NCBI RefSeq assembly: GCF_021462225.1
Contig: NC_061806.1
Location: 496,001 to 560,000, forward strand
Direction: 5' to 3'
Source of the DNA: Girardinichthys multiradiatus
Taxonomy: Eukaryota > Chordata > Actinopteri > Cyprinodontiformes > Goodeidae
DNA: 64,000 nucleotides
Below the pieces are notes generated by a model. That model was not told where the DNA came from, did no database searches, and saw nothing but the letters and a program-made list of their open reading frames with translations. Within the stretch, counting starts at the first letter, position 1. Every line of letters starts with the position of its first letter. A program made the position numbers and the translations under genes. Positions 8,887-60,702 of this stretch are shown here, piece by piece.

Positions 8887-8888
8887 TA

Positions 8889-31947: not shown

Positions 31948-32335
31948 AGAGACATTAAGGACATTCTTCAATCAAACGAGGTGTGAAAATTTTGACAGGT
32001 GGGCGGGACTTCCGGTGGCTGGGACATCCTAGGGCGGGACTTCCGGTGGCTGGGACATCCTAGGGCGGGACTTCTGGTGGCTGAAAAACTGAAAAAAATA
32101 AAGTCCTCAGACATGTCACTGTTTATTGAATTAAAGCAGACATCTTGTGTATTGTCTCAGACAGTCTTCACACCAACTGTAGTCAAAAAGTAATTAAGAG
32201 GAAAATAGCACTTTCCTGGCTATAAGTCTGGAGCATTGTCTGACAATACACATCCACTGTTTAATGAATTAACGCGTCTGCGCTGTTGCTGAGGTGACTC
32301 GGGGGGTATGGCCAAGGGGCGTAACTAAGCGCGCT
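31948..32335 (+). repeat. Left terminal inverted repeat of copy A
   Basis: Begins AGAGACATTAAGGACAT. It pairs with the right repeat up to GTAACTAAGCGCGCT at 32335. It contains about three tandem copies of a 31-bp GGGCGGGACTTCCGG unit at 32001-32083. It lacks a segment of about 300 bp that is present in the right repeat. Confidence 0.93.
32001..32083 (+). repeat. 31-bp GC-rich tandem repeat in the left TIR
   Basis: The unit starts 'gggcgggacttccggtggct' and occurs nearly three times. The right TIR has about two copies in inverse orientation (46530-46590). GC-box-like GGGCGGGAC repeats could act as promoter or replication-terminus elements; this is inference. Confidence 0.85.
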
Positions 32336-32478
32336 AATAGGATTTTGTCATTAGGGGGCGAATCTAGAATCAACAAATTAAAAAACAGAGGGGCGTTCTT
32401 CATTGTTTGTTTTAAATACTAGCGGAAAACACAACAATTTACCTGCAGCATTCGCTGGAAAAGAACGCTTGTTGAACA

Positions 32479-33282
32479 ATGGTTAGAGTTAAGAGAGTTT
32501 TTCATCAAACCGGGGAGAAAAGCAAGATGTGCCAAGATGACCATCTACATCATCTATTTCCTCGTCTGAGATACCTATCGGAATTCCTATCGTAACATAC
32601 TCTGCAGATGATGATTCAACTTCACCAACAACAATGGATGAAAAACAGGCCTCAGGTCAGCTAAGACGTACATCTCTTCTGTGTGAAACCCCAGTAACCG
32701 TCTACAGGCATACGCGCCGTGAAATGGATGCCCCGAAGAAATCAACATATTACCTATGCAAGGTACAAAGGCCTCCGTTCGACACTCTGAAGGAAGAGTG
32801 GTCTTTGGAACCATATGGCCTGAGTGGTAGCTGGGGGTATATTTTCATGTACAAAATAGGAGAGCTCTGCCTGTATCAATTGGATCAAGACGAGGTATTT
32901 AATGGATCATTGGCTCTGTGTACTCTCACCCACAACGACTGGGCTGTGTTACCCTGAATCAGTCGCAGTGTACGAAAGGGAGGATGAAGATGAAAGCTCT
33001 CCTCGACCAGCAAAAAGGATGAGAATGTGTCCTTCCGATGTTGAAATAGCTGCGAGAGAACCTCTCTTTAGTGCAGTGTGGGGGTCAAAAACCACAGCAA
33101 ATGGCCGCTGGTCTTTTCAGGCAAGCAAACGCAAGAATAACCAGACGACCCCCTCAGATCTGTTTGTGTTGGAGGCATTCAATCAGAACTGCGGTGTATT
33201 CAAGACTGTGCTGGCTCTACCGTATGATGCTTGGGTTGAGAAGATGAATGAAATTGGACAGCGTCTTTCCAACCTTTTCTAA
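32479..33282 (+). pseudogene. Left-arm gene 1 of copy A, unknown function, frameshifted
   Basis: Three partly overlapping open stretches run in order: from ATG 32479, a middle frame open from about 32540 with Met 32634 and stop 32957, and a last frame 32902-33282. The frame changes suggest two small indels in one gene of about 265 codons. The middle segment is Ser/Thr- and acid-rich at its start, then has WSLEPYGLSGSWGYIFMYKIG. The last segment has a basic patch (RPAKRMRM) and WGSKTTANGRWSF, shared with copy B. No domain recognised. Separate small genes are an alternative. Confidence 0.5.
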
Positions 33283-33425
33283 AATTCACGCTGCTGGATT
33301 GATGTTATGTCAGTGAAAAGAATCCTGACGTTCCCTGTTGTGGATCTAAAGCCCACCCTCTTTTGAGGACCCACCCTCTTTTGAGGACCCACTCCCCTTC
33401 TTGAGGACCCTCCCACCTTCCTGCA

Positions 33426-33434
33426 CTATATATC
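33426..33434 (+). promoter_or_regulatory. TATA box of left-arm gene 2, copy A
   Basis: CTATATATC about 65 bases before the start codon, followed by 'taactgcgagctcacagac', which is shared with copy B. Confidence 0.55.
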
Positions 33435-33496
33435 AGGGTCTAACTGCGAGCTCACAGACTCTTCTTCTTCATAACGGTGGGCGGCAGACCTTGAGA

Positions 33497-34336
33497 ATGT
33501 ATCAAGCGTACGGGAAAACACCATACTGGGACCTCTACAGCCAGCAAGAAGAGACCGTCTTCTCTCCTGATCATGATGATAAAAGCTTCAACACCGGGCC
33601 GTATCATCCACCTTCTCCAGACCTCTACTCACCAGCCACCTCATCATTGCAGCTCTTTGAGTCCCTATTCAGTTCAGGGACACCGACAGGATACAACCTC
33701 AGATCATATCATCCGCCTTCACCCGGCCTCTATTCACCGCTATGCGTGGCTGAGTCTGTACACACAGATATCCAACCTGAAGACAAGAGGGTGATCGTGG
33801 AGGACGAGGCAACCATCAGCTACTCACCCTCCCCACAAACTCCAGACCCGATACCTGCCCCTCAGCCTTCACCAGAGGAGGAGGAGAGTAATCAGGGTGA
33901 TGAAATTGACGGCTGGATCTCAAGCGCTCTCATCAATACAGTGAAAACAGCGATACTTCCTTTATTCAGCATAACCTGTTTGAACTATGTCAAAGAAACC
34001 TGTTACGGGTGCATAACGAACCACCTGAGCCAACAGCAGCATCAGTGCCTGGAGATATTGGAGGAGGAGTATTACCAAGTCAACATTCAACGCATCGTGT
34101 GACGACTCGTAAACCCCAAGCTCCTTCCTGCTATTCGGAAACTTCTGACACTTCGACGCATACAAGCAGATGACTTCAGAGTGAAAACGATTGCTGAGAC
34201 GGTTTTATATGAACTGAAATCGGTACAAGGCTTCCATAGTGCAATCACTGATATGTACGATAAGATGAGCGGTAATGATTGTCTCAAGCAGCTTAACTCT
34301 GTCTCAGAGTGCTACGATCCGATCTCAGATGATTGA
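33497..34336 (+). pseudogene. Proline-rich left-arm gene 2 of copy A, one nonsense codon
   Basis: About 280 codons starting at ATG 33497; an upstream in-frame ATG at 33401 precedes the TATA box and is not shared with copy B. The N-terminal half has GPYHPPSPDLYSP and SYHPPSPGLYSP repeats and an acidic centre (PSPEEEESNQGDEID). The C-terminal half has a hydrophobic segment (ALINTVKTAILPLFSITCL) and CYGCITNH. A TGA at 34100-34102 stands where copy B has CGA, a CpG-type C-to-T change, and the frame is open afterwards to 34336. Function unknown. Confidence 0.7.
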
Positions 34337-34561
34337 TGACTTGTTTTGTCTTTTCTGTATTTTCTCTCAGCTTTCTACTGGTATACATATATAACAGTTT
34401 TGGTTGCAATGTTTGAATTGATCTTTATTATCTGAATGTGTTTTTTTTTTCTGTTTCTCTATTAAATACGGGTACAAAATAAAAAAAGTATAAATGTACC
34501 CTCAGGTGTTTGTTTTTTTCATTATTTAACAAGTAGTCGTCAGAGTGAGCATAAAACTGGG

Positions 34562-35650
34562 ATGTCTGAAAGAAGGATCATGAAAAATGTATATTACAAC
34601 CCATCAAATCCGGGAAGTTTAGGGGGTTTAGAAAGGTTGAGGAGGGTTATACAAGATGAAACGGGGAAGAAGATAACGGTTGAAAAAGTTAAAGATTTTT
34701 TATCGGGAGAAGATACCTATACTCTACATAAACCTGCAAGAATAAAGTTCCCGAGAAACAGAGTTTTTGTCACCAGACCATTGAGACAGTTCCAAGCCGA
34801 TCTCTGTGACATGCAAGCTCTGGCCATGGAAAATGACGGTTACAATTATTTATTAACAGTCATTGACATCTTTTCAAAGAGGGCGTATGTATGTGTTTTG
34901 AAGAGGAAAACTGCTGCAGAGGTGCTAAAGGCTTTTGAATCAGTTTTTAAAGAAAGTCAGGTCCCAAAAAAACTTCAGACTGATGCAGGGAAATAATTTT
35001 TTAACAAGAAATTTAAGCTTCTAATGGAGAAACACGGTATTGAACATTTTGCCACAGCAAGTGAAGCAAAAGCCTCTGTGGTTGAGAGGTTTAACCGTAC
35101 GTTAAAAACAGGGATGTGGAGATATTTTACTGCTAACAACACCCGGCGGTACATTGACGTCCTGCAAAATTTAACTAGAAGCTACAACCATTCCTACCAC
35201 ACCAGCATTAAGATGAGCCCAATGGAAGTGACCTCAGAAAATGCCTTTCAAGTGTTTCAGAATCTGTATGATGTCAAGTCCAACAGATATTGCAGGGACT
35301 CAGTGACAATGTTTAAACAGGGGGATCTTGTCAGAATATCCAAGGTCCATGGAGTGTTTGACAAAAAATACAAACAGAGTTTTACAGATGAAGTGTTTAC
35401 AGTGTATGAGCGGATACCCCAATCTCCTCCTGTATACAAACTCAAAGATTTGGATGGAGAACCTATTGAAGGTTCTTTTTACGCTGAGGAACTTCAAAAA
35501 GTTAAAATATTTAAGGACAAGATGTGTCAAGTGGAGAAAATATTAAATCAACGCACCGTCAAGGGTGTCAAACAGGTTTTTGTACGCTGGAAAAATTGGC
35601 CTGAGAAATTCAACAGTTGGATCAAGTTTGATGAACTACGAAACGTATAA
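34562..35650 (+). pseudogene. Maverick integrase with chromodomain, copy A, one nonsense codon
   Basis: A retroviral-type DDE integrase that would join element ends to target DNA. The core has FQADLCDM (first Asp), LQTDAGK (second Asp) and ASVVERFNRTLK (Glu). A C-terminal chromodomain (VRWKNWPEKFNSWIKFDEL) ends the protein at 35650. A TAA at 34994-34996, just after the second Asp block, replaces the GAA read in copy B, splitting the gene into 34562-34996 and the downstream open part. A TATA-like sequence (GTATAAAT) lies about 70 bases upstream of the start. This copy keeps the chromodomain that copy B has lost. Confidence 0.92.
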
Positions 35651-35653
35651 AAT
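35643..35653 (+). promoter_or_regulatory. TATA-like box overlapping the integrase stop
   Basis: GTATAAAATAG overlaps the integrase stop codon, about 40 bases before the minor capsid ATG. Copy B has GTATTAAAAAG at the same place. A compact viral-style promoter is plausible. Confidence 0.45.
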
Positions 35654-35689
35654 AGGTGCGTGCTAAAACCTTACGATTCATACAGCATC

Positions 35690-36445
35690 ATGGACAGTAA
35701 GGCAGAGGATGACGGTTTTTACATTACCCTTCCCTCTAATGCTAGCATGGAAGTGTTTAAAAATAATACCAGTTCGAGTTTCCGTGTAAATTTAGCTCAA
35801 CATATTGATTTAGAAGGCCAATGGATGGTTGCATTAGCAGAGATTTCATATCCTCATACACGGCATAATTTACCGGATCATGATGCCTACTTTGAATGGA
35901 AGAAGGTTGTGGATGTGGAGATCAATACGCAAAGGATCAGAAGTGGCTAGTATAACAGCGCTATTCAACACGAGACAGAGATGGAACTGTTTTTCAAAAA
36001 AATGAACTCGGGTATCCGCATTAAATTCAGCAAAGTTCAAAAGAGATTTGCATTTCAAGCAAGCGGTCCGTATGAAATACGCTTCTTCAGCACTCTAGCT
36101 TATATGATGGGCGTGAAACCAGGGGAATGGATTCATGTTTCTGAACCAAAACTGGCTCCTTTTCCGGCAGATATAAAGGCTGGTTTCTATCACCTATACT
36201 GTTACAGTGACGTGGTCAGCCCACAAATAGTAGGCGACACTTTTGCGCCTTTACTGCGGACCGTCAAAGTACAAGGCGACTTCAGTGATATGGTTACTCT
36301 GACGTTTAACCCCGCCCACTACCTTCCAGTCTCCAGAAGACATATTGAAAATATCCATATAGAAATTAAATCGGACCAAAATGTTCCTGTAAATTTCGTC
36401 TATGGTAAGACCATCGTAAGACTACACTTCAAACCGGTGATATAA
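35690..36445 (+). pseudogene. Penton-like minor capsid protein, copy A, split by an in-frame TAG
   Basis: A single-jelly-roll minor capsid (penton-like) protein of Polintons, expected at the capsid vertices. The first part (ATG 35690) has DGFYITLPSNAS, then FRVNLAQHIDLEGQWMVALA, the usual opening of this family. A TAG at 35948-35950 interrupts the gene. The second part continues in the same frame to 36445 (SGPYEIRFFSTLAYMMGV, PVSRRHIENIHIEI). Copy B has the same TAG at the same codon. Total length without the stop would be about 250 codons. It may be an inherited mutation, readthrough, or a natural split. Confidence 0.85.
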
Positions 36446-36483
36446 CAACGTAGCCTGAGATAAATTTTATTTGTATAAACAGA

Positions 36484-36494
36484 GATATATATAA
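36484..36494 (+). promoter_or_regulatory. TATA box of the core-protein gene, copy A
   Basis: GATATATATAA, about 75-85 bases before ATG 36568. It is identical in copy B (50490-50500). Confidence 0.55.
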
Positions 36495-36567
36495 CTTCTA
36501 AGACTGATTGGTTATCATTCATATTACGCTGGTCCTTCAACACTGCATCAAGCAGGCAAGAGAGAAC

Positions 36568-37011
36568 ATGGCACAGCTAAGTCTGAGACGTGATCCAAAT
36601 CGCTTTATAAATTACTATGTAAGTCAATCAGGCGGTTATCTGCCAGGGTTTTATGGGGCCCCGGTCATGTGCGGACATGGAATTGGATCATTATTTTCAA
36701 AATTATTCCGCTTCGTATCCCCTCTGGTTAAAAAAGGATTTGCTATTGCAAAACCCCATCTTAAAATGGCTGCATCAAATATCGCTTCGGATGTCATCGG
36801 TAGAGCCGTGAGTAAAATGAGTGGTTCTACACACACCGACGGTCAAGAAGGTTCAGGAATTATGGTTTTATCCAAAAGACCCAGAACAAGACCCCCTGGT
36901 GATCGTTTAAGGACGGTTAAAAAACAACGACAAACACGAAAAAGGAGATCAGTTAGAGCTGACAAACGAAGAGGAAGGAAGTCATCCGCATGTTTTGATA
37001 TATTTAAATAA
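36568..37011 (+). CDS. Small basic virion core or membrane-active protein (pX/pVI-like), copy A
   Basis: 147 codons, intact. The start at 36568 was chosen over an upstream in-frame ATG (36508) because it follows the TATA box at normal distance and has a better context. The N-terminal third has GYLPGFYGAPVMCGHGIG, then an amphipathic helix with LFSKLFRFVSPLVKKGFAIA. The last 50 residues are very basic (KKQRQTRKRRSVRADKRRG). Glycine-rich entry, amphipathic helix and basic tail are typical of the small Polinton/adintovirus protein likened to adenovirus core proteins. It probably binds DNA or membrane in the particle. Its stop overlaps the major capsid start (TAATG). Confidence 0.75.
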   Translation: MAQLSLRRDPNRFINYYVSQSGGYLPGFYGAPVMCGHGIGSLFSKLFRFVSPLVKKGFAIAKPHLKMAASNIASDVIGRAVSKMSGSTHTDGQEGSGIMVLSKRPRTRPPGDRLRTVKKQRQTRKRRSVRADKRRGRKSSACFDIFK

Positions 37012-38310
37012 TGGCTCTTTTACATAACAAATCATCAGAGTGCACGCTGGCAGAGTTGGACTTATTTTCTGCCCCAATGACATAGCTATCTATTGAAGAT
37101 AAAATTTACACCGAGATCCAGCCTTTATCAGCAATCACTGATGGAGGGCCGATCGAGTTTTTCATTCCGGGAGATGGAGAAAAGTATCTAGATCTCAACG
37201 ATACGCTGTTGCATCTCAGAGTGAAAATTACTAACGAGAATGGAACAAACCTGCCGGATGATGCACCTGTAGGGCTCATCAACTACCCGTTAAACACCAT
37301 CTTCAGTCAGTGTGATGTCACTCTCGGAGATTGATTGATTTCACAATCCAGCGCTACACATCCATATAGAGCCATGATTGAGACATTGTTAAACTTTTCT
37401 GAGGATTCTTTAAAAGCCAGTTTAGCTCTGGTCTTTTTTTCAAAGACACTGCAGGTGCTCTGAACTCTATTGTTACAACTAACGGCCCTAACCAAGGTCT
37501 TAACAGCAGAGCAGGCTTTACGGAAAGTTCCAGGGAGGTACATCTCCTAGGCCCCCTGCATGCAGACATATTTTTCTGTGAAAGACTTCTTTTAAACTCT
37601 GTTGACCTCAAAATTAAACTTACAAGAGCCAACAATGCCTTTTGTCTCATGGCAGCAAGAGACTCCACTTACAAACTCAGGATATTAGGAGCATCTCTTT
37701 TTATCAAAAAAGTTACTGTCTCTCCAGCTGTACGACTGGGTCACGCTTCAGCTTTAATGAAAGCAAATGCTCTGTATCCACTTTCACGTGTGAATGTAAA
37801 AACATATTCCATCCCTGAAAATTCAAGGGTATGCAACCAAGAGAATCTTTTCTTAGGCGTCTTTCCCAAGTATGTGGTGATTGCATTACTGGATCATGAT
37901 GCTTTTACAGGAACACGCGATCTCAATCCGTTTGACTTTAATCATTTTGATGTGGAATATTTAGCTTTGTGTAAGGATGGCAGACAAATTCCTGCTAAAG
38001 CCTTCCAGCCAAATTTTAACCAAGGTCATTCAGTGAGAGAGTATTACAACTTGTTTACGGCTACAGGACGACATCTAAAAGATCTTCCACTGAGTATAAC
38101 ACGTCAGGAATTTAATCAAGGATACTCTCTATTCACATTTAATCTTAACCCGGGTGAGGACACAGATGCTCTATTTCCAGTTTCCAGTGGGAATTTAAGA
38201 TTGGAAATGCGCTTCAGAAACCCGTTGCCTCATACCATATCATCTACGCTTGTTATGACTCTATTTTAGAGATTGATTCAAAGAGGCGTGTGCTGGTGGA
38301 TTATTATTAA
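37011..38310 (+). pseudogene. Major capsid protein (hexon-like), copy A, broken
   Basis: A double-jelly-roll major capsid protein, which builds the Polinton/adintovirus shell. It begins at 37011, overlapping the core gene stop. The N-terminal part has EIQPLSAITDGGPIEFFIPG, a hallmark of the family. Breaks: TAG at 37083-37085, TGA at 37332-37334, a frameshift in a T run near 37435, and a small deletion near 38237 that spoils the last about 25 codons. The long open middle (37649-38269) is well preserved (RILGASLFIKKVTVSPAVRL, FNQGYSLFTFNL). Confidence 0.9.
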
Positions 38311-38321
38311 TCTAATCAGAC

Positions 38322-38864
38322 ATGAATAATCATGAAATTGAGAACCTGCTGCATCATCTGCTGGGAGATTTGTTTTGCGGTGTGTGGCCGTGCGACCAGC
38401 TCCCGCTGCTCGCTGACAAATTCCCAGGGCCGGCCTACTTTATTGTGAACACACATCCTTCACACATGCCGGGGGAACACTGGTTAGCTCTGACTTTGGA
38501 TGAGAATGGTCAATCCAGCTTTTTTGACTCTTATGGATTCTCTCCGGATTTCGAGTTCTACCCGTCAAGCATCGTAACATTTTTAGAAGACAGATCCTCA
38601 AAAATATTGTATCATAATAATCAGCTTCAAAACACTCTGTCCACTGTGTGCGGTCACCATTGCATTTTTTATCTATGTCATAGAGCGTGCGGATTATCAA
38701 TGCAGCAAGTGTTGTCGAAATACACCGGAGATGTGATTAAGAATGATTTAATGGTATCTAACTTTGTGAAAAAATATCAGAAATGTGTCATTAATCAAAG
38801 TTGTACATTTCATACTCACGGAACATGCTCTTTGGAGATGTTTATGGATTGTTATGGAATTTAA
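38322..38864 (+). CDS. Adenain-like cysteine protease, copy A
   Basis: 180 codons, intact. It would mature capsid and core proteins. The catalytic residues align in order with adenovirus protease: His53 (GEHWLAL), Asp69 (FFDSYG), Gln103 and Cys110 (STVCGHHC), with the same seven-residue Gln-to-Cys distance. It follows the major capsid stop by 11 bases. Only a few substitutions separate it from copy B (51705-52247), for example at residues 42, 59 and 175. Confidence 0.95.
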   Translation: MNNHEIENLLHHLLGDLFCGVWPCDQLPLLADKFPGPAYFIVNTHPSHMPGEHWLALTLDENGQSSFFDSYGFSPDFEFYPSSIVTFLEDRSSKILYHNNQLQNTLSTVCGHHCIFYLCHRACGLSMQQVLSKYTGDVIKNDLMVSNFVKKYQKCVINQSCTFHTHGTCSLEMFMDCYGI

Positions 38865-38973
38865 ATTGTCTTTTTTTTCATTGTTTGTTTTTTCTTATGA
38901 TATAATATTTGTGTAATGATATCATATGTTAGTGTGTCAAGTAGAGAACGAAGTTAGACTTGAAAATATAATC

Positions 38974-38988
38974 AATAAATATTTTATT
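38974..38988. terminator. Overlapping poly(A) signals for converging transcripts, copy A
   Basis: AATAAA on the plus strand (38974-38979) and AATAAA on the minus strand (38988-38983) lie within 15 bases, between the protease gene and the converging 276-aa gene. Copy B has the same pair at 52371-52385. Confidence 0.75.
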
Positions 38989-39031
38989 GAATAAAAGAAA
39001 TAGGCTACATGTTTCATTTTCTTATAACGGT

Positions 39032-39862
39032 TTATGGTGAAAATGTAATCCATCGGGGTGGTAGTGTCGTCTTACGAAGAGACCTTTTTGATCTCCCATC
39101 AGCATTTTTTGGATCTTCCAGCTCAGATCTCGACCAGTAGGGAGAATGAGTTATCTGCCTTCTTCTTCTTGTTCTTCTCTGCTTAACGCTGGGTGGTGTA
39201 CCCCCATTTTCAATCGATGTACCCTCTGTTTTGAAACGTCTATATTCTTCACGAGCATAAGGGTTAATGACTGAAGATATAGGTATGTTTACCTCTGACA
39301 AGGTGTGTAGAAAGTCTGACCACCCTTGGGGTAGCCATGCTCCAGATTTTTTAAACGGAAGCATGAGATTTTTCAACAAATCAATCATGTGGGACCCCTT
39401 TACAACATTCCCTTTATATACAAATTCACCTCGCGAAGTCCAACTCTCACTTCTTTCGGATAATTTCATCAAAATGTACTCAGCATTTTTACGGTTATGC
39501 TTCAGTAGGCTTTTCAGTACATCCGTAACAACCTGATCCTTAGGGGCCTCGTCCTGCCCTGGGCCTTGTTTTTCTTGGGACCGCTCATGTTCAGGAACCT
39601 CTGTGTCACGCTGCAGCGTTAAACTGACCCGCTGTTTTTCTTCTTTGACACCTTGCTTAAGTAAAGTCAGATACCTCTGGAGAAGAGCATCGTATTTCTT
39701 GATTTTTTCATAAGAAGTCATACCCGGCTCATTTATTATCGCTCTCATTTCAGCATCAAAATTCTCCTCCGCCATCTGTCTGATGGACGTGTCTGACTGG
39801 GTCAGACGCTTGAATTGATGAGGGGAAATGAGAAACATCTTCTGCGATGTTCTGAGAGACAT
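39032..39862 (-). CDS. Conserved Maverick protein of 276 aa, copy A
   Basis: Intact in both copies at the same length (copy B 52429-53259). The N-terminal half is charged and helical (MSLRTSQKMFLISPHQFKRL, YDALLQRYLTLLKQGVKEEK), then a Gln/Glu-rich linker, then a compact domain with NRKNAEYILMKLSE, PFKKSGAWLPQGWSDFLHTL and ISSVINPYAREEYRRFKTEG, and a basic tail (KQRRTRRRRQ). This arrangement recurs next to the ATPase in fish Polintons as I recall, but no function is established. Position suggests a structural or morphogenesis role. The start codon overlaps the stop of the 113-aa gene. Confidence 0.8.
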   Translation of the reverse strand: MSLRTSQKMFLISPHQFKRLTQSDTSIRQMAEENFDAEMRAIINEPGMTSYEKIKKYDALLQRYLTLLKQGVKEEKQRVSLTLQRDTEVPEHERSQEKQGPGQDEAPKDQVVTDVLKSLLKHNRKNAEYILMKLSERSESWTSRGEFVYKGNVVKGSHMIDLLKNLMLPFKKSGAWLPQGWSDFLHTLSEVNIPISSVINPYAREEYRRFKTEGTSIENGGTPPSVKQRRTRRRRQITHSPYWSRSELEDPKNADGRSKRSLRKTTLPPRWITFSP

Positions 39863-40203
39863 TATTTCCTGATGATTCCACCCACTAGATCACCGATCAA
39901 GGGAGCAAGAGCCGTTAAGATGGGGAGAATAAAACCACCTCGTTGCTTTTTGAGAGCCAACTGTTTAGTTTTTATTCCGGTTTTTTTATCACCCAACAAT
40001 CTGATGATATTTCTTTGTTTCTTCAATTGTCGGTGTTGAGAGGGTGATAGTTTAATGTTACCTTTTAGGATATTCAGAGCAATCTCGCACAGAGCCTGAA
40101 TAAAGTCGGGAGAGCAGTGTGCGAGAATATCTTTACGTTTCTGTGGACAGGCCTGGTACAAAGCTCTGAATAATGGTAAATTCCTTTTTATAAGTGCAGA
40201 CAT
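39862..40203 (-). CDS. Conserved 113-aa Maverick protein with hydrophobic C-terminus, copy A
   Basis: Intact in both copies (copy B 53259-53600). The N-terminal part is helical (NLPLFRALYQACPQKRKDIL, ALCEIALNILKGNI). The C-terminal part has a basic linker and a Gly-rich hydrophobic end (QRGGFILPILTALAPLIGDL). This resembles adenovirus-type core or membrane-active peptides that begin GGF.P; a role in the particle is inferred. The stop overlaps the start of the next gene (TAATG), and the start lies six bases after the ATPase stop. Confidence 0.75.
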   Translation of the reverse strand: MSALIKRNLPLFRALYQACPQKRKDILAHCSPDFIQALCEIALNILKGNIKLSPSQHRQLKKQRNIIRLLGDKKTGIKTKQLALKKQRGGFILPILTALAPLIGDLVGGIIRK

Positions 40204-40209
40204 GATGAC

Positions 40210-40893
40210 TTACTTTGTTCTGGGTACGTACACAGCAGGCCACTGCTGAGGAAGTATCCCCGTTCTCAGTCTGAAATGTTCTGGGCAGGTAGGCGTAAAA
40301 TCGATGATTAAATATCCATGAGCTTCTCTCGTCGCATCTTCAAAACTCTCCAAGAAGAGACCCTTTTGAGATGGAAACATTTGGCGGGCCAGTATATTCA
40401 GCTGGAGTTTATCTCTCGGGTTCTTAAACAACACCATATAATTACAGTTCAAACTAATAGTGCGACTGAACTTTCCCTGATGAAAAACATTCTGAGTCAA
40501 CATCATAACACTCATATTACGATGGTGACGAAACTGGGTAAAGACCTTCATCACGTTTTCATCATCTGAGGCTTGAGCAATAACATCGTCTAGAATAATC
40601 AGATGATTCTGATCAGGAGGAAACAGGTTTTCATCTTCAAAAGAATGAGGCAATCCTTCCACAAATTTTATATTTTTATTCATCTTCTGCAATTCAGCAT
40701 ACATCGGTTGAAAAGATGTGTAAATCCATACAATATTTTCTGGAACAATATCCATGACATGGTTACAGTTCTGCAAAACACTTTTTACAAAAAAGGTTTT
40801 TCCACAACCACTGGGTCCTATAATCATACATGAGAAAGGCGCTCTAAATCTAGGATCAAAATCAACCTCCTGTAAATTGGCAGATTGCAACAT
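40210..40893 (-). CDS. FtsK/HerA-type packaging ATPase, copy A
   Basis: 227 codons, intact; drives genome packaging in related viruses. The Walker A motif is GPSGCGKT (residues 26-33), Walker B is LIILDD (98-103), and a sensor-like stretch MLTQNVFHQGKFSRTISLNCNY follows. The opening (DFDPRFRAPFSCMIIGPSG) is typical of Polinton ATPases. It begins two bases after the polymerase stop because a deletion of about 90 bp has shortened the intergene relative to copy B. Confidence 0.95.
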   Translation of the reverse strand: MLQSANLQEVDFDPRFRAPFSCMIIGPSGCGKTFFVKSVLQNCNHVMDIVPENIVWIYTSFQPMYAELQKMNKNIKFVEGLPHSFEDENLFPPDQNHLIILDDVIAQASDDENVMKVFTQFRHHRNMSVMMLTQNVFHQGKFSRTISLNCNYMVLFKNPRDKLQLNILARQMFPSQKGLFLESFEDATREAHGYLIIDFTPTCPEHFRLRTGILPQQWPAVYVPRTK

Positions 40894-40895
40894 TT

Positions 40896-43800
40896 TTATT
40901 TTATCTTTCTTCTTCTTCTTCTTAAGAGGAATCTCTTTTTATCCCTCCTGATTGTGTGCTGAGGGATTTCAATGACACCCTCACTTGACCTCTGTAAGTA
41001 GCCCTCGACCAGCCCTTTGATGCTGTCCAAATTGACCCTCTCGCTGCATTCATGCATCTGAGTGATACCCCTAGCACGTATCACTAGCTTTTTCTGGTTT
41101 TTGGTTTGATATGCATAACTCTTGGGTCTTGTCGATGCAAACTCTGAAATGCTGTCTCCTGCGAGCTCGTCAGTAAGATCACCCAGATAATTCCCCAACT
41201 CCAGAGGAGTTTCACCACTTTTTGTCACATAAATCAAACTGTCTGTGTCAATATAAATCAATCTGTCCTGCAATTGCTCCATGCTGCTGAGACGTTTTGA
41301 ACGCGCATAAGCGGTGGTGAATGCTGCAATAAACACATTGTTTACCTTGCTTGGAGGAGAGATGACACGTTTGCTGTAGTTCCACTGCACTACACACATT
41401 TCAGGGTTGAAGAAATGGAAGTAGTTAACCCTGTATTTACTCGAGAACATGAAGCTGAAAAACTCATCAGGGTTAGTGATGACTGTGGTCTGAGACAGAT
41501 CACTTCGCTGCGCAAACTTTCCCCAAAAGCTGTTTAAGCACAGTTTCGCTACCTGTCTTTTGGCAGGGTTCACCTCGATTTTGCCTGCGTCTAATTGGAT
41601 ACCCTGGTGAAGTTTGTAGTCTGCTACATACTTTGACCTGCTCTCCTCATCCACCGCTTCAGATGGGTAGCCTGAAGCCTCCTGCTTACCCTTTAAAAAG
41701 CAGTGAATGTAACCTTTAAAGATTGTGTCGCTGGTCTTCTCAAAATGCCAAACTTCAGTGATTTTAGCTAGGCGATAACCACACTGCAGCGCTTTACAAA
41801 ACTCTACACTCACCCACACACCTGTCAGAGCTCTGTCCTCATCATTATGCCTGCAGGGACCTGACTGGTTATTTATTTCAGCACATGTGCGGCAGAGAGT
41901 AAACACCAGTTTACCTTGGGATGTTCTGTAAGGCAAAACAGGGAAAAAGAGACTTCGTAGGGGGTAGACCACAGCTCTGATGAGGCCAAAGTAGCTGCTG
42001 GGGTCATCAAAATCTTTGTAAATGATGGTGGGGTGTCCGAGGGGAAAAACGTAGTTGGCGTTTACATAAGGGTACAGAGATGTGTAATCCACATAGTGTA
42101 CAGTTTCACCTGCCCCCGCTGTGTACCTCAACTTCATAGGACAGGTGCGTCCACCATACAGAGCATCTCGGGGTGATAGCAGTTCAGGTGCATTAACTTT
42201 CTCAAGAAAGCTGATCACCCCAGGGTCTGATTTTTTCATTTCAATCCACTCATGCTCCCAGATGACCTCGAGACGAAGACCGTACACAGTTTGGAGCACC
42301 TTGCTTCTCTCAACAGTGGCTGCGTAAAACTGTTCAAATGCGACCCCTCTCAACGGACATTTGTCATGAGGCATGTAACACTTTTTACAGCCGTGGAAAA
42401 AACAGCCGTAAAATTCAAACGCAACTTTGACACCGTTAATCTCTGCATACCCATCCACAGAATATGGACCAATTTTCTTTCCCCCATGTTTAATGCATGT
42501 TCGATGTCAATTTTTCTGCTGTCTGAAATCCAGCCAAGCCATTGAATGGACGTGCTGTAAAACGTCTTACTACTACGCCTGTAATCCAGAGGTGAGGGGA
42601 TGGCCAAGGTTTTAGGAGGAAGGAAATTGGTTACAAAAACCCTTCATGCAGGCTGAGGCTATCGTGACGCATTTAAGCGGATCCACACTTGTCTCCTTAA
42701 AGAACTCATCCCTGAATTTAACACAACCTTGATAAAGAATGTCCACATAATTTTTACAATAACGAAGAGCTTCCTTCTCAAAGTCAAAGACCCCTTTGCT
42801 CGCTTCTCTGTACCAGCTGCTAAACACCTGTTGTTCTTGAAGGCTCATGCGTTCTACAGCGTAGGAGGATGGAGGAGGAAAAGACCCCACATACTGGAGA
42901 TGTTGCTCAGACGAGAATAGGTGGGGGAAAAAACCTTTGGTCTTATCACTAAAACCTAATGCTTTCGGCATCGCACTAAGCTTCATACACATGAAGGACA
43001 GACTATCAATGTATTTTAACCTGTAATCAGGGTCGGTTAAACAGAGAACTTTACTTCCCTGCATGATGAGATGAGGTTTTATTCCTAACTGCAGCATAGC
43101 TGTGAGAATCAGGTAGCTGTCATATCCACGTGCGTTATGAGCTATTAAGGTAAAGCCTCTGTACATCAGTCTCCTGAAATGGAGAAGTAATTTTTGGGTG
43201 CAATTGAATCCATAAGCATGCCATTCCTCACCTTTCAGCGTTTTAACACAGACCAGATAGGGGATATGCACACCTTTCACGTCAATGAAGCATTCAAAAT
43301 CATAAAAAAACAGTTTATCATCTAACTGATTACAGGCTTGGGCGGTTTGAATGTAACACAGATGACCATCGCACGTCACATCTAAATCAGGAGGTATATT
43401 CTCACCACAAATACGGTATTTTACACACGTGTGGTTTATCCTGCTTGCTGATTGGAATAACGTATATCCTTTTGCACACCTTGCACAGTTTTACCAACTC
43501 ACAGTCACTCATTAGCCTGTCAGCACTAGGTCTTTTGCGAGGTTCCCTGTGTCTACTGAAACAAGAAGAGTTACGACAGATTCTGTGACAACCTGCACAG
43601 GCGACAGGTTCGTTAATTTCACGCATACACTGGTAACGGTTCTGTGAAACACTACAATTTTTCTCTTTAGAATGTTTTCAAATTTACCAATGTCGCTGAA
43701 AGTTACTGCTGTCTGATCATCTGAACCAGCCCTGCGTTGCTGCTCCCTCCCCAGCTCTAAAGTCTGATTATCAGTAAGGTTAGAGTCAGAGACGTGTGCA

Positions 43801-44615
43801 AGACTTATGGCAAAGCATAACTGATTACCGGTATTATCTACAATATACAGGTGACGCTTTTTCTTATTAATCAGTTCACAGTCTAACGTTCCTTTAACCT
43901 TACGTTTCGACCCTCCTGCAGGGTCATTAACTACCTGTAGAACAAATTCCAGGTTATTATCTGCAGGCATTTCAGCGTTGCACTGTACTAACTCATCCAG
44001 AAAATTCTCAAAAGCAGGCAGAATCATATTCCCATCATCGTTAATGGTAAACGTGACGTTACGGTTCAGATTTTCCCCGACTAATTCTAGCTGCACAACA
44101 TTGTTACGTCTGGCTAACGATCTTGCAGTATCGGCTAATTCAGTGAGAATATGCATGATGTTTATATAGATTGTAGCAAGATCAGGAACATGACCAGGGC
44201 AGGGAGGCGGGATGGTAAAAGGTCTCCTTATTTCGATGTTATTAAAACGTTCACGTTCAACAGTCGCAGGAGGATCTCCCTCAATCTGATCAGGGTTGAG
44301 TGCAACCTCTGGATTGAAATTACCGCCATGCTGCCCAGTATGATCAGCGGCGTGTGACGTTAAAGGAATTTGTAATTCAGCTGATTCATTTTGCTGAATG
44401 CTGGTTGGAGATGGTGCTCTATTTAAATCTTCAACAGCCTGTTCTCATGAGCTAAAAAAGTCACCGTACAGATTTTGATTTATTACATTTTCACTGTTAG
44501 CAGGAGATGCATTTAACCCGATGTTATCTGCTACATCAGCATTAACAGGAATTTCACTAAGTTGAGCAACAACATTCCTTATCTCATTTAGCGTATGTGT
44601 GATCTGGCTTTCCAT
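40896..44615 (-). pseudogene. Protein-primed family B DNA polymerase, copy A, multiply broken
   Basis: The element's replicative polymerase reads leftward from about 44615. Pieces: N-terminal 44615-44450 (ends in TGA), then 44156-43640 and neighbours, a Cys-rich zinc segment (43626-43402), the exonuclease (43379-42612) with FYDFECF and AHNARGYDSYL, then 42607-42480 and the polymerase domain (42458-40896). The latter has YVDYTSLYPYV (motif A), LCLNSFWGKFAQ (motif B) and LIYIDTDSLIYV (motif C). Breaks include the TGA near 44449, a deletion of about 190 bp near 43640, and frameshifts near 43400, 42645 and 42480. The extreme C-terminus is altered by a deletion. Confidence 0.93.
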
Positions 44616-44655
44616 ATTAACATCAGAAGAAGAAGAAGAAGACCCAGGGATCAGT

Positions 44656-45799
44656 TTAAATTACCTTGATATCAGCACTATGTTTCAGTAACAATGTCTG
44701 ACATGCAGCCAGAAGCGTTAAACTTGATGCTTTATTACAACGGTCACGTAAGGATAGGGGAACTCTCTGTCTGCGCTGTTGCTGTCCAGGTCTCGATGAA
44801 ATCTGCTCCACCATCAACGTTGCCTCTGGAAAGATAAAGAAAAAAAATTAATTAATGAAATATGCAAATTAATTCAGTAGGTAAATGAGTATAAGAAGAA
44901 TTAAACTTACCATTCAATAAACCTTTAACAAGCCTTGCCCTGGTATAAAGAGCACAGAGTCGCCGTCTTTTCCTCAATTTAAGATATTCTGTGAAACAAA
45001 ATAAAGTTACCTTACAATGCAGGTCTTTTGAAAAAAAAATCTGGTTTCTGTGAAGATTTGAATATAACTATAACTTACTCCGTACACGGGGTATTTGAAC
45101 GGTTCCAGGCGGTTCCAACTCTTCCTGTACTGAACTGCTACAGTTCTGCTGAATGTTATCCAAGCTTGGATTCTGGTTTAAATCATTCGATATATCTGTA
45201 AAATATTTTATCAGGGGTTAAAACAAGTCTGCAATATCGCATAGACCTGTGAAAACATATGCATAGAAATATATATATATTTTTTTTACTTACTCTCCTC
45301 TCCCGGAGCTGTTAATTTTTCCGGCGCACGGTCAGGTGACTGTGGTGCATGAATGGCTTCGCCCTCTATTTCATGTTTAGCTGGGATCGGATTGTCTTTT
45401 TTAAAGACAAGTTTCCGTCTCAACTTTGATTTTTTCGGAGGCAGACGGTTACAAACGCTGACCTCTCCAACGTTCAGGAATATGTCTCTTGTTAAATCTG
45501 TAAGTAGAATTTATTTCATTTATTTTTTAAATCACAAAATAGCATTCACCAGTTGACTAAACTAGATGTTGTTGTTGCAGTTAATAATTACCATAGTCAG
45601 ACTGTGTAAAAACGATACCATCCAGCTCATCACTCGTGGGTTCTAAAGAATATAAGTTAAACAATATTATTATCCAACGAGCATTCACAAGCACTTAAAG
45701 AATTCTTAAAGATGAATACTTACTACTGAAGATTGCGTTGTATCTTTCGATAGAAGCAGAATGTTCACCTTCTTCGTTTCCTGAAATATTTTCCGACAT
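44656..45799 (-). CDS. Spliced six-exon gene next to the polymerase, copy A, unknown function
   Basis: Exons on the minus strand: 45799-45724, 45642-45592, 45497-45294, 45195-45079, 44988-44911 and 44825-44656 (76, 51, 204, 117, 78 and 170 nt). Every junction has GT-AG ends, four of the five donors read GTAAGT and the other GTAATT, and every intron falls in phase 1. The joined length is 696 nt (231 residues plus stop TAA) with no internal stop. Exon 1 is acidic, exon 3 has a basic nuclear-signal-like patch (PPKKSKLRRKLVFKK), exon 5 is strongly basic (LRKRRRLCAL). Copy B has the same exons 1, 3, 5 and 6 with matching phases. A nuclear regulatory protein is a reasonable guess. A further donor-like GTAATT at the end of exon 6 could lead on toward polymerase. 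Confidence 0.7.
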
Positions 45800-45955
45800 T
45801 TTTTTTTTTCTGCTTCTCCTTACAAGTGTTCTAAAAATATTTCAGTGTAATTGGTTAAAAATAAACTTTTAGCTACCAGATTTGAAGCCGATCTCCCAGT
45901 AAAGATTGCGCTGTATCTCTCGATAGAACCAGGGATGACTGACTGCACCACCTTC

Positions 45956-46641
45956 AGCGCGCTTAGTTACGCCCCTTGGCCATACCCCCCGAGACACCTC
46001 AGCAACAGCGCAGACGCGTTAATTCATGAAACAGTGGATGTGTATTGTCAGACAATGCTCCAGACTTATAGCCAGGAAAGTGCTATTTTCCTCTTAATTA
46101 CTTTTTGACTACAGTTGGTGTGAAGACTGTCTGAGACAATACACAAGATGTCTGCTTTAATTCAATAAACAGTGACATGTCTGAGGACTTTATTTTTTTC
46201 AGTTCATCTCTACAACAGAAGCCAATTCATCCTTCTTTTCTAAATAGCATCTAAATAACCCGTGTGTTAAAACAAAATGAATTTACACTCTGTCAGGTTC
46301 TCTCTTTTTATCAGAATTTCATGTGATGTGCCCGCATTAAATTGAGTGACCTTTTAAAGTGGAGAAACTACATGTTTTGTTTTTAGATGTAAAAAACATC
46401 TAAAAACATACAATTAGAAAGATTTGCTTCCTTGTAATGACAACTTCCGGTTAATGACAACATCCGATTAATGATGATATCCGGCTAATGACAACATCCG
46501 ATTAATGATGATATCCGGTTACGTCACAGGAAGCCCCAGCCACTGGAAGTCCCGCCCTAGGATGTCCCAGCCAACGGACGTCCCGCCCACCTGTCAAAAT
46601 TTTCACACCTTGTTTGATTGAAGGATGTCCTTAATGTCTCT
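45956..46641 (-). repeat. Right terminal inverted repeat of copy A
   Basis: Inverse of the left repeat, ending ...TTAATGTCTCT at 46641. It is longer (686 bp) because it retains a segment at about 46210-46530. Part of that segment is also found near the right end of copy B (61610-61760), so the long form is ancestral and the left repeat of copy A has lost it. Near 46440-46520 it has short repeats of 'ttaatgacaacatccg' type. Confidence 0.9.
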
Positions 46642-46647
46642 CTCTTG
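46642..46647. repeat. Target-site duplication of Maverick A, right copy
   Basis: CTCTTG, identical to 31942-31947. The L1 endonuclease coding continues directly outside it. Confidence 0.9.
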
Positions 46648-48296: not shown

Positions 48297-48569
48297 AGTA
48301 TTCCAGTTCTTTAATTAATTTGCATTATATGATTTTTCTTGTTTTTTTTCTTTTTACTATTAAATACAATTAAAGTAGGAACATATTAACCTCTCCCAAA
48401 AGTGTTGTTTAAAAGCTAGTAGTGTTTGAATTCATCTGCATTAATCTGCATTTTATCAGATTTCTTTTTTTCTTTTTTCTATTAAATAAAAAAAGGGATA
48501 AATCTACCCTCCGGTGTGTTTTTTTCTCATTATTTAACAAGTAATCGTCAGAGTGAGCATAAGGCAGAG

Positions 48570-49670
48570 ATGGCAGGAAGACGGTTGATGATGAAAGTAT
48601 ATTATAGCCCTTCAAATCCGGGACGTTTTGGGGGTGTAGATATGCTGAGGAGGGTTATGCAAGATGAAACGGGAAAGAAGGTTGCGGTTGAAAAAGTTAA
48701 AGATTTTTTATCAGGAGAAGATACCTATACTCTACATAAACCTGCAAGAATGAAGTTCCCGAGAAACAGAGTTTTTGTCACCAGACCATTGAGGCAGTTC
48801 CAGGCTGATCTCTGTGACATGCAAGCTCTGGCCATGGAAAATGATGGTTATAATTATTTATTAACAGTCATTGACATCTTTTCAAAAAGGGCGTATGTAC
48901 GAGTTTTGAAGAGGAAAACAGCCGCTGAGGTTGTAAAGGCATTTGAATCAGTTTTTACAGAAAGTCAGATCCCCAAAAAACTTCAGACTGATGCCGGTAA
49001 AGAATTTGTTAACAAGAAATTTAAGGTTTTAATGGAGAAACACGGCATTCAACATTTTGCCACTGCGAGTGAAGCAAAAGCTTCAGTGGTCGAGAGATTT
49101 AACCGCACATTAAAAACAGGGATGTGGAGATATTTTACAGCTAACAACACCCGACGGTACGTCGATGTACTGCAAAACCTAGCTAGAAGCTACAACCATT
49201 CCTACCACTCCAGCATTAAAATGAGCCCTATGGAAGTGACCCCAGAAAATGCCTTTCAAGTGTTTCAGAATCTGTATGATGTCAAGTCCAACAGATATTG
49301 CAGGGACTCAGTGACAACGTTTAAACAAGGGGATCTTGTCAGAATATCCAAGGTCCATGGAGTGTTTGACAAAAAATACGAACAGAGTTTTACGGATGAA
49401 GTGTTTACAGTGTATGAGCGGATACCCCAATCTCCTCCTGTATACAAACTCAAAGATTTGGATGGAGAACCTATCAAGGGATCCTTTTACGCAGAGGAGC
49501 TTCAAAAAGTAAAATATTTAAGGACAAGATGTATCAAGTGGAAAAAATATTAAATTGACGTACGGTCAAGGGAGTCAAACAGGTTTTTGTACGCTGGAAA
49601 AACTGGCCTGAGAAATTCAACAGTGGGATCAGGTTTGATGAACTTCGAAACGTATTAAAAAGGTTTGCAC
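48570..49670 (+). pseudogene. Maverick integrase, copy B, frameshift removes the chromodomain
   Basis: Open from ATG 48570 to 49553. The catalytic core is complete: Asp80 (FQADLCDM), Asp141 (LQTDAGKEF) and Glu175 (ASVVERFNRT). A one-base deletion near 49509, seen against copy A, shifts the frame, and translation ends 14 codons later. The chromodomain coding is still recognisable downstream (to about 49655) but also has an in-frame TGA near 49555. This copy would lack the chromatin-targeting module. Confidence 0.92.
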
Positions 49671-49695
49671 TAAACCTCACAGTTGACACAGCATC

Positions 49696-50469
49696 ATGAA
49701 CCGTCAGGTAGAGGATGATGGCTTTTACGTTACTCTTCCATCTAATGCTAGCAAGGAAGTGTTTAAAAATAATACCAGTTCAAGTTTCCGTGTAAATTTA
49801 GCTCAACATATTGATTTAGAAGGCCAATGGATGGTTGCATTAGCAGAGATTTCATACCCTCATACATGGCATAATTTACCGGATTATGATGCCTACTTTG
49901 AACGGAGGAAGGTTGTGGATGTGGAGATCAATACGCAAAGGATCAGAAGTGGCTAGTATAACAGCGCTATTACACTTGAGACAGAGATGGAACTGTTTTT
50001 CAAAAAAATGAACTCGGATATCCGCATTAAATTCAGCAAAGTTCAAAAGAGATTTGCATTTCAAGCAAGCGGTCCGTATGAAATACGCTTCTTCAGCACT
50101 CTAGCTTATATGATGGGCGTGAAACCAGGGGAATGGATTCATGTTTCTGAACCAAAACTGGCTCCTTTTCCGGCGGATATAAAGGCTGGTTTCTATCACC
50201 TATACTGTTACAGTGACGTGGTCAGCCCACAAATAGTAGGCGACACTTTTGCACCTTTACTGCGGACCGTCAAAGTACAAGGCAAATTCAGTGATATGAT
50301 TACTCAGACGTTTAACCCCGCCCACTACCTTCCAGTCTCCAGAAGACATATTGAAAATATCAATATAGAAATTAAATCGGACCAAAACGTTCCTATAAAT
50401 TTTGTTTACGGAATGACCGTCATAAGACTACACTTCAAACCGGTGATATCACAACGTAGCCTGAGATAA
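49696..50469 (+). pseudogene. Penton-like minor capsid protein, copy B, same in-frame TAG
   Basis: The same gene as 35690-36445. The first part, 49696-49956, ends in TAG (49954-49956) after QRIRSG. The second part continues in the same frame from about 49957 to 50469 with a C-terminus extended by six residues relative to copy A. Apart from the shared TAG both halves are open. Confidence 0.85.
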
Positions 50470-50489
50470 ATTTTATTTGTATAAACAGA

Positions 50490-50500
50490 GATATATATAA
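50490..50500 (+). promoter_or_regulatory. TATA box of the core-protein gene, copy B
   Basis: GATATATATAA about 75-84 bases before ATG 50574; identical to copy A. Confidence 0.55.
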
Positions 50501-50573
50501 CCTCTAAGACTGATTGATTATCATTCATATTACCCTGGTCCTTCAACACTGCATCAAGCAGGCAAGAGAGAAC

Positions 50574-50914
50574 ATGGCACAGCTAAGTCTGAGACGAGAT
50601 CCAAATCGCTTTATAAATTACTATGTAAGTCAATCAGGCGGTAATCTGCCAGGGTTTTATGGGGCCCCGGTCATGTACGGACGCGGAATTGGATCATTAT
50701 TTTCAAAATTATTCCGCTTCGTATCCCCTCTGGTTAAAAAAGGATTTGCTATTGCAAAACCCCATCTTAAAACGGCTGCATCAAATGGATGTCATCGGTA
50801 GAGCCGTGAGTAAAATGAGTGGTTCTACACGCACCGACGGTCAAGAAGGTTCAGGAATTATGGTTTTATCCAAAAGACCCAGAACAAGACCCCCTGGTGA
50901 TCATTTAAGGACGG
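50574..50914 (+). pseudogene. Core-protein gene of copy B, frameshifted and truncated
   Basis: Matches copy A for the first 70 codons. An eight-base deletion near 50789 then shifts the frame, ending at 50801. The basic C-terminal tail is missing because a larger deletion joins this gene to the major capsid gene at about 50914. Confidence 0.85.
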
Positions 50915-51693
50915 TACATCTTCTAGGCCCCATGCATGCAGACATATTTTTCTGTGAAAGACTTCTTTTAAACTCTGTTGACCTCAAAATTAAACTTACA
51001 AGAGACAACGATGCCTTTTGTCTCATGGCAGCAAGAGACTCCACTTACAAACTCAGGATATTAGGAGCATCTCTTTTTATCAAAAAAGTTACTGTCTCTC
51101 CAGCTGTACGACTGGGGCACACTTCAGCTTTAATGAAAGCAAATGCTCTCTATCCACTTTCACGCGTGAATGTAAAAACATATTCCATCCCTGAAAATTC
51201 AAGGGTATGCAACCAAGAGAATCTTTTCTTAGGCGTCTTTCCCAAGTATGTGGTGATTGCATTACTGGATCATGATGCTTTTACAGGAACACGTAATCTC
51301 AATCCGTTTGACTTTAATCATTTTGATATGGAATATTTAGCTTTGTGTAAGGATGGCAGACAAATTCCTGCTAAAGCCTTCCAGCCCAATTTTAACCAAG
51401 GTCATTCAGTGAGAGAGTATTACAACTTGTTTACAGCTACAGGACGACATCTAAAAGATCTTCCACTGAGTATAACACGTCAGGAATTTAATCAAGGATA
51501 CTCTCTATTCACATTTAATCTTAACCCGGGTGAGGACACAGATGCTCTATCTCCAGTTTCCAGTGGGAATTTAAGACTGGAAATGCGTTTCAGAAACCCG
51601 TTGCCTCATACCACCACGCTGATCATCTACGCTTGTTATGACTCTATTTTAGAGATTGATTCAAAGAGGCGTGTGCTGGTGGATTATTATTAA
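50914..51693 (+). pseudogene. Major capsid protein of copy B, N-terminus deleted
   Basis: The deletion corresponding to about 36918-37539 of copy A (roughly 622 bp) removes the first jelly-roll part. The rest is open to the natural end at 51693 (CYDSILEIDSKRRVLVDYY), so the C-terminus lost in copy A is intact here. The open frame extends upstream to 50659 through out-of-frame core gene sequence, making an accidental fusion frame of 344 codons. It is not a functional capsid gene. Confidence 0.9.
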
Positions 51694-51704
51694 TCTAATC
51701 AGAC

Positions 51705-52247: not shown

Positions 52248-52370
52248 ATTGTCTTATTTTTTTTTCATTGTTTGTTTGTTTTTTTTTCTTCTTATGATTT
52301 AATATTTGTGTAATGATATCATATGTTAGTGTGTGAAGTAGAGAACGAAGTTAGACTTGAAAATATAATC

Positions 52371-52385
52371 AATAAATATTTTATT
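52371..52385. terminator. Overlapping poly(A) signals for converging transcripts, copy B
   Basis: AATAAA on plus (52371-52376) and on minus (52385-52380), the same arrangement as in copy A. Confidence 0.75.
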
Positions 52386-52428
52386 GAATAAAAGAAATAG
52401 GCTACATGTTTCATTTTCTTATAACGGT

Positions 52429-53600: not shown

Positions 53601-53606
53601 GATGAC

Positions 53607-57690: not shown

Positions 57691-58461
57691 TTATATGAGC
57701 ATAAGAAAAATCAAATAAACCTACAGAAAAACAAAACAAAACAGTGATCAGTTCAGTTTAAAATCACCTTGATGTCACCAAACTGCTTCTGTAACAGAAT
57801 TTGACAGCCAGAAGCGTTAAAGATGAAGCCTTATTTCGACGGATCCGTACGGCTGTAGAACCTTTCTTGCTGCGACGTTGATGTGCAGGTAATGAACCAA
57901 TCTGTCCTATCATCAACGTTACCTCTGTAAGAAGAATGAACAACAACAACAAAAAATATATATATATATATATATTGAAATAAAGACATTAAAGCTGAAA
58001 AAAAAGGGGAATTCTAATTAATTCAGTAGATATGAATTAAAACGTACCGCTCATTAAACCTCTCACGAGGGCCGCCCTGGTATGCAGAGCAGAGAGTCGT
58101 TGTCTTTTGGCCGGGGTTAAATATTCTGTAAAAACAGAATAAAATAAAGTTACCTTACGCTGCGCAGCACAGCGTTCATAAATAAACGATAATAGTTTTA
58201 AAATAAACAAGTTTTTCAAGGGGGAAGTGAACCCCTATAACTTTAGTACTTGTAGGTTTATAAACGAATTTTTATCTGTGTGATAAAACATCCAGATTTT
58301 GCTTTTTGCTGTACAGGACCGGTGCGTTTCTGTTGAACGCTGTCTTGATCTTTGAAAAGTGACCTTCTGGTAGGAATTTTCAGGGTCGCATCTTTGGGTG
58401 TATCTGTAAACAGATTTATATGATATTTTATTGAACTATGCTTAAAATACATATATATATA

Positions 58462-59942: not shown

Positions 59943-60519
59943 TATATATTGTTGTTTTTATTTATTTTTACCCGCCTTGCTGCTCGACAGCTGATGGCAG
60001 TATTCCAAGTTCGGCTTTAGTTTGCTTGATCAGATCAGCTGGTGCTGTGTCTTCCAGAGCGTTCTCTGTCGAATCTGTAAACAGTTTTATCTGAGGTTTT
60101 AAAACAAGTCTCTAATAATGAACATTCACTCTCAAAGAAAACAAATAGTTTTTAGGGCTTACTTTCTGGCCCGGGAGCAGCTGGTAACTTATCTGGTGTG
60201 TTTTCAGGGGAAATGATGATAATTGGCGGAGGGGCATTTAAAGATTCAGCTATAACTTCTTTGTTAGAAGAACGTTCAGATGTTGTTGTTGGTATTTCTT
60301 TTTTGGAAATAATTCGCCTTCTCAACTTTGACTGTCGATTCCAGCAGCTGAATTCTCCAACTTGATCATTCGGGTTTACCTCTCTCATCAAATCTATAAA
60401 TTGAAACATTGTCAAGGTTTAACTATAAAATATTTTTGCATTTAACATTTACTTACCATATTCTGATTGTGTCAAGATGAAATCCTCAAGGTCATCAGTG
60501 GTGGGTTTTATGACAAAGA

Positions 60520-60557: not shown

Positions 60558-60702
60558 CAATATTAGAGAACATTCACATGCATTTAATGATTTCTTAAAG
60601 ATGAATACTTACTTACTTACTTTTAAAGATGTCATTGTACTTCTGTGAATCATTAGAAGCAGATGGAGCAATTTCTTCGTTTTCTGAAATATTTACCGAC
60701 AT

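Follow-up and report, generated by a model that had tools for sequence, protein, structure and literature searches.

A predicted six-exon, spliced gene beside the terminal repeat of a Maverick element in the goodeid fish Girardinichthys multiradiatus

Analysis of a 64,000-nucleotide stretch of the Girardinichthys multiradiatus genome (referred to here as the window) reveals a gene of six coding blocks and five gaps on the minus strand of a Maverick/Polinton element, occupying positions 45799–44656 (1,144 bp) and read inward from the right terminal repeat. On balance we favor the interpretation that this is a spliced Maverick gene, and that its 231-residue product would serve as an early regulator in the nucleus, acting as adenovirus E1A does without being homologous to it. 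Splicing, if true, would mean that the element is transcribed in the nucleus, and a five-intron gene whose joined frame is constrained across 40 genomic copies makes it directly testable whether vertebrate Mavericks run a nuclear viral cycle.

The six exons are all in the minus orientation and have the following composition. Exon 1 (45724..45799; 76 nt) opens with an ATG at 45799 and is acidic, exon 2 (45592..45642; 51 nt) carries the acidic segment PTSDELDGIVFTQSDY, exon 3 (45294..45497; 204 nt) codes for a basic stretch with RRKLVF (a motif of the RxLxF type), exon 4 (45079..45195; 117 nt) is an acidic linker, exon 5 (44911..44988; 78 nt) contributes a predicted basic helix, and exon 6 (44656..44825; 170 nt) contributes a second, C-terminal predicted helix and the stop codon. 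Joined, they give 76+51+204+117+78+170 = 696 nt, corresponding to 231 codons and a stop. Introns 1 (45643..45723), 2 (45498..45591), 3 (45196..45293), 4 (44989..45078) and 5 (44826..44910) are likewise on the minus strand and are 81, 94, 98, 90 and 85 nt long, respectively; all five have GT-AG ends and all five are in phase 1 (after the first base of a codon), so that the layout is that of a spliceosomal gene, with GT-AG introns in phase and an open joined frame. The donor is GTAAGT in four introns and GTAATT in the fifth. Scored with general consensus frequencies, the donors fall within the top 0.5–7% of GT sites in the window; among AG sites the best acceptor is in the top 0.1% and the poorest in the top 45%, that of intron 2 being weak. 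An initial annotation had proposed this same arrangement of six minus-strand exons, GT-AG phase-1 introns, mostly GTAAGT donors and 231 codons, and the spliced-frame search described below recovers the identical chain. It had also argued that the exons are too short to stand out as an ORF, and indeed stop-free runs reach at most 74 codons in any of the gene's three forward frames (1,144 bp), which is why the gene is invisible in the ORF list and why ORF-based surveys would miss a gene of this kind. An Rfam scan of the window returned no match at gathering score, and thus no group I or group II intron, and a tRNA scan of the window gave no match.

The element that carries the gene, copy A, extends over 31948..46641 (14,694 bp), has the ends AGAGAC/GTCTCT, and is flanked by a 6 bp target site duplication, CTCTTG (31942–31947 and 46642–46647). 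The terminal inverted repeats have an inner arm of 249 nt at 99% identity (45956–46204 pairing with 32087–32335) and an outer arm of 115 nt at 94% identity (46528–46642 pairing with 31947–32061). Pfam identifies rve, DNA_pol_B_2, Peptidase_C5 and Pox_A32 domains arranged in two converging modules, and the rve domain of the integrase (34562–34996) is followed by a Chromo domain (35024–35650), the C-terminal chromodomain that marks adintoviruses; the frames at the places expected for the major and minor capsid proteins have no Pfam match, and PolB is split over several frames. The inner arms differ at just 2 of 249 positions, which suggests that copy A is a young insertion, and a flanking frame (29770–31665) that encodes reverse transcriptase and endonuclease domains leads us to read it as having inserted within a LINE. 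The gene adjoins the right terminal inverted repeat region (45956..46641), with its ATG some 157 nt inward of the repeat's inner edge at 45956 and its stop 40 nt before the ATG at 44615 of a same-strand frame on the PolB side. The right repeat also has about 320 nt (46205–46527) that are missing from the left one; it contains a 17-nt tandem repeat (46418–46521), and part of the region resembles 61599–61756 beside a second copy of the element in the window (copy B).

The predicted product is a protein of 26 kDa with a pI of 9.2. AlphaFold models of two relatives, both of low confidence (mean pLDDT 50.9 and 56.9; pTM 0.22 and 0.25), show a mostly disordered N-terminal part and helices at the C-terminus, and the model of a B-type relative (see below) has a short helix on the acidic exon. 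Motifs of the RxLF type dock cyclins, and RxLF or RxLxF is present in 24 of 47 proteins (46 relatives plus the window protein) compared with a mean of 3.1 and a maximum of 9 in 500 shuffles, a contrast that is overstated because the 47 proteins are related and the motif is short. LxCxE is present in none of the 47. The window protein has no Pfam match, its relatives give weak and inconsistent rows (best E 0.0098), and no E1A family appears in the scan. Likewise, NCBIfam gives a single row far under its cut-off (17.4 of 104 bits), there is no match among PDB sequences, and Foldseek comparison with viral models gives 71 matches, none with an E of 0.001 or lower, the best of them (herpesvirus K8, E 0.34) being no evidence of relationship.

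In adenoviruses, E1A is the first gene beside the terminal repeat; it is read inward and spliced, and its product is mostly disordered and motif-rich with an acidic segment. The Maverick gene resembles it in its inward-reading position beside the terminal repeat, in its predicted splicing and modeled disorder, and in having an acidic segment and an abundance of motifs, but differs in that no sequence relation was found, LxCxE is lacking and there are five introns. It is the repeat-side position, together with the predicted splicing, the disorder, the acidic segment, the docking-type motif and the basic helical end, that leads us to an E1A-like regulator; the role, including its timing, nuclear location and partners, is one that we infer from position and make-up. 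The initial annotation had likewise suggested a small nuclear regulatory protein, possibly early, translated from spliced RNA and implying a nuclear transcription phase, a proposal that is plausible. Transcription would start in or near the terminal repeat and run inward towards PolB, and the host nuclear spliceosome would remove the five GT-AG introns. With phase-1 introns throughout, internal exons could be skipped or gained in frame to yield several isoforms, and two gene models lack exon 3. Acidic exon 2 may then bind a transcription cofactor, the RxLF-type motif may serve as a docking site for a cyclin-CDK or a comparable partner, and nuclear retention of the protein may depend on the basic helical C-terminus, with the regulator readying the host nucleus for PolB-driven replication.

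A somewhat unlikely alternative is that the gene is spliced but encodes a basic DNA-binding core protein, or a packaging or replication helper, rather than a regulator. The basic character of exons 3, 5 and 6 (pI 8.9, 11.7 and 10.3), the predicted helical C-terminus and the location immediately 5′ of PolB, with both on one strand, are what such a protein would have, but exons 1, 2 and 4 are acidic, and between copies A and B the gene has a dN of 0.25–0.44, compared with 0.012–0.032 for the ATPase, the protease and the 39032–39862 frame. In copy B, exons 1 (60621..60702; 82 nt), 2 (60457..60507; 51 nt) and 3 (60163..60393; 231 nt), the counterpart of exon 5 (58048..58125; 78 nt) and the last exon (57755..57924) are all on the minus strand. 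Exons 2 and 5 have the same lengths in the two copies, as first proposed, with exon 1 differing by 6 nt and exon 3 by 27 nt, and for the four introns compared the differences are 32, 31, 10 and 38 nt. Copy B is decayed – there is no AG in front of exon 2, the last exon is frameshifted, and a Tc1/mariner-type element has inserted – and by sequence it falls in a subfamily whose genes have an extra exon. The A–B dN/dS values are 0.47 for exon 1, 0.32 for exon 2, 0.15 for exon 3, 0.41 for exon 5, and 1.03 for exon 6 (its first 42 codons), in a comparison that omitted exon 4; changes at the three codon positions number 45, 46 and 81 (chi-square p 6.5e-4). The Tc1/mariner-type insertion (58455–59949), situated between exons of the gene in copy B, is 97–98% identical to another copy at 7273–8890, with a DDE_3 domain. 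Copies A and B, compared over 34400–45000 and 48400–58200, form a mosaic, with 97–98% identity on the capsid/protease side, 86–93% over most of PolB and about 63–82% near the spliced gene, a pattern that suggests recombination. No viral-contig relatives were confirmed through the 344-aa frame of copy B at 50659–51693.

Three protein searches (11, 7 and 45 rows) identify 46 distinct predicted proteins in eight goodeid species. Matches that cover junctions 1–5 span them without a gap in 12/14, 10/15, 9/13, 8/20 and 17/17 cases, respectively, the matching gene models being predictions of which several are partial. The initial annotation had described a split Maverick gene conserved in the second copy; the split gene stands, and with 40 genomic places, 46 goodeid predicted proteins and all five junctions spanned, its conservation reaches well beyond that copy. 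There are two subfamilies, the A type to which the gene here belongs and a B type distinguished by an extra exon that encodes RRSLFKDQ. One B-type model, P0014 (LOC124871093 isoform X2 of G. multiradiatus), is from the same gene family but differs from the gene here in lacking exon 3 and carrying the additional RRSLF exon; P0009 is likewise without exon 3, a loss that is tolerable in both because the exons are in phase 1. An isoform label such as X2 often signals transcript support. Three models, P0003, P0004 and P0006, have another 5′ exon, joined from about 45877 to position 45780 within exon 1, for which reason we treat the ATG at 45799 as a provisional start. A 31-nt stretch of exon 1 (45729–45759) recurs at 90% identity upstream of this ATG, at 45902–45932. 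It is possible, and we put this forward tentatively, that goodeid Mavericks have evolved a master regulator that resembles E1A, undergoes alternative splicing and is assembled from phase-1 exon cassettes that can replace one another. Docking motifs would then be exchanged, skipped or added one exon at a time (exon 3 of one subfamily has RRKLVF, and the additional exon of the other has RRSLF), and these elements, with an early phase in the host nucleus, would be agents of the small-DNA-tumor-virus kind.

Several short introns in a single phase are typical of animal genes, and the five introns here might therefore be leftovers of a host gene that was captured with its introns and is now turned against the host, in cell death or immunity. 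We regard this origin as unlikely. Diverse genes are carried in vertebrate Maverick accessory regions, according to the available portion of PMC8097293, as a captured gene would lead one to expect; but all hits up to E 10 in the three protein searches come from goodeids (repeat masking of other fish annotations could hide some), and no Pfam, NCBIfam or PDB family is recognizable in the protein.

Comparison with known systems underlines how unusual the proposed splicing would be. It was noted initially that most Polinton genes are uninterrupted and that some introns have been reported; in the portion of PMC8097293 available, the genes of intact vertebrate Mavericks are described with no introns observed, so the six-exon gene is more unusual than that remark allowed. 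Vertebrate Maverick accessory genes as presented in that portion resemble the gene here in their place between PolB and the terminal repeat and in the two-module layout, and differ in being reported as intronless where the gene here has five predicted introns. In the literature searched, which included parts of PMC8097293, PMC11071296, PMC10812802 and PMC12220804, no report was found that vertebrate Mavericks contain spliceosomal introns, and an earlier notice in print is possible. In the available text of PMC11071296, adintoviruses have candidate oncogenes and an 'Oncoid' class, and the lone mention of splicing concerns an iridovirus; their accessory proteins are similarly small, belong to Polinton-type animal viruses and are known by short motifs, but no spliced accessory genes are described in that text, whereas the gene here is predicted to be spliced. 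Cryptophyte polinton-like viruses, in the part of PMC12220804 available, also have introns within a small gene of a Polinton-type element, but these are self-splicing group I introns of 309–376 bp, in contrast to the short GT-AG introns here, which match no Rfam family at threshold.

Could such a chain of exons arise by chance? The longest spliced frame was sought in 1,701 nt, using donors of the form GT[AG]A[GT]T and pyrimidine-backed YAG acceptors (an acceptor rule loosened after a stricter one gave only 113 codons and three introns), and the 8 donors and 36 acceptors yielded exactly the six-exon, 231-codon chain. None of 2000 dinucleotide shuffles reached 231 codons, the best being 226 codons with one intron, and none of the 2000 had three or more introns. 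When half-overlapping tiles of the window were searched on both strands, four or more introns were found in just 1 of 148, the gene's own place. The six-block layout is thus confirmed as real, and its origin by chance is improbable.

The gene matches at least 40 places (41 rows) in the 1.15-Gb assembly at 92–100% identity, and the window copy, itself one of the 40, served as reference for an alignment of all of them. In 36 of the 40, the adjoining 282 nt towards PolB are retained to more than 95%, showing that these are copies of the element and not of a lone host gene. Over 90% of every exon is present in 28 copies, of which nine have an uninterrupted reading frame between the ATG and the stop without any correction (one splice dinucleotide is damaged in two of these), and among 198 scored introns the GT is kept in 189 and the AG in 191. 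Related elements with coding introns, which the initial annotation held would speak against splicing, are not what the 40 copies present: retention of introns 1, 2, 3, 4 or 5 introduces an in-frame stop in 39/40, 40/40, 39/40, 37/40 and 33/39 copies, respectively. A search with one exon 5/exon 6 junction pattern found no retroposed copy. Among the copies are two facing pairs, at two genomic places, with the members of each pair about 9.75 kb apart (L019/L020 at G000:C24:2486570-2496320 and L022/L023 at G000:C25:2629554-2639312); all four match from query base 21, and each pair is perhaps an inverted-duplication derivative of the element.

Several comparisons among the copies bear on constraint. 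First, divergence from the window copy at codon positions 1, 2 and 3 is 0.039, 0.036 and 0.056, and the pooled pN/pS is 0.41, with pN lower than pS in all 39 copies compared (the copies not being independent). Second, variants common to two or more copies (47 silent, 80 replacement) have a pN/pS of 0.50 (p 2.6e-4), compared with 0.77 (p 0.05) for private variants (81 silent, 215 replacement), and the two classes differ (p 0.05). Third, counting distinct indels of up to 30 nt, shared ones number 5 in 696 bp of exon (4 of them multiples of three) and 24 in 448 bp of intron (8 multiples), and the corresponding counts for all distinct indels are 35 (12 multiples) and 58 (14 multiples). Finally, splice dinucleotides are kept at 0.951 versus 0.913 for intron interiors, which is not significantly better, since 6577 of 20000 random interior draws do as well. 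Intron divergence (0.035) is no faster than at codon positions 1 and 2 and lies below that at position 3, and was dropped as a neutral yardstick for the latter reason. Overall, these comparisons provide good evidence of coding, and direct evidence of splice-site selection that is weak at the short distance among copies. The lack of a significant difference in conservation between splice dinucleotides and intron interiors, and the fact that 19 of the 28 full copies are not open, could be expected if there were no splicing and the gene were a fortuitous series of open blocks, or degenerate ORFs that gene predictors have joined. This is very unlikely, given that no shuffle matches the 231-codon frame, that nearly every retained intron brings an in-frame stop, that shared variants are constrained and that there are 46 relatives.

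It is more improbable still that the exons of this putative regulator gene are instead a spliced leader of PolB, with a donor before the exon 6 stop joined to the PolB-leading frame: the donor-like site is kept in 36 and the acceptor-like site in 32 of 39 scored copies, and a stop precedes the start-less PolB-leading frame in both window copies, but that intervening stop (44445–44447) is found in only two of the 39, one of them the window copy, and 32 are stop-free throughout the piece. Splicing of PolB onto exon 6 was therefore rejected, and with the stop so rare the PolB-side frame simply begins at the ATG at 44615.

The donor-like sequence itself, AAG/GTAAT at 44660–44667 just before the gene stop, may owe its retention in 36 of 39 copies only to coding; one of the predicted proteins, P0019, ends differently after the same residues as those at this site. 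Elsewhere in the window, the segment 5590–6898 is 77–83% identical to copy A at 32987–34362, includes a 238-aa frame (5970–6686), and is perhaps a remnant of another element.
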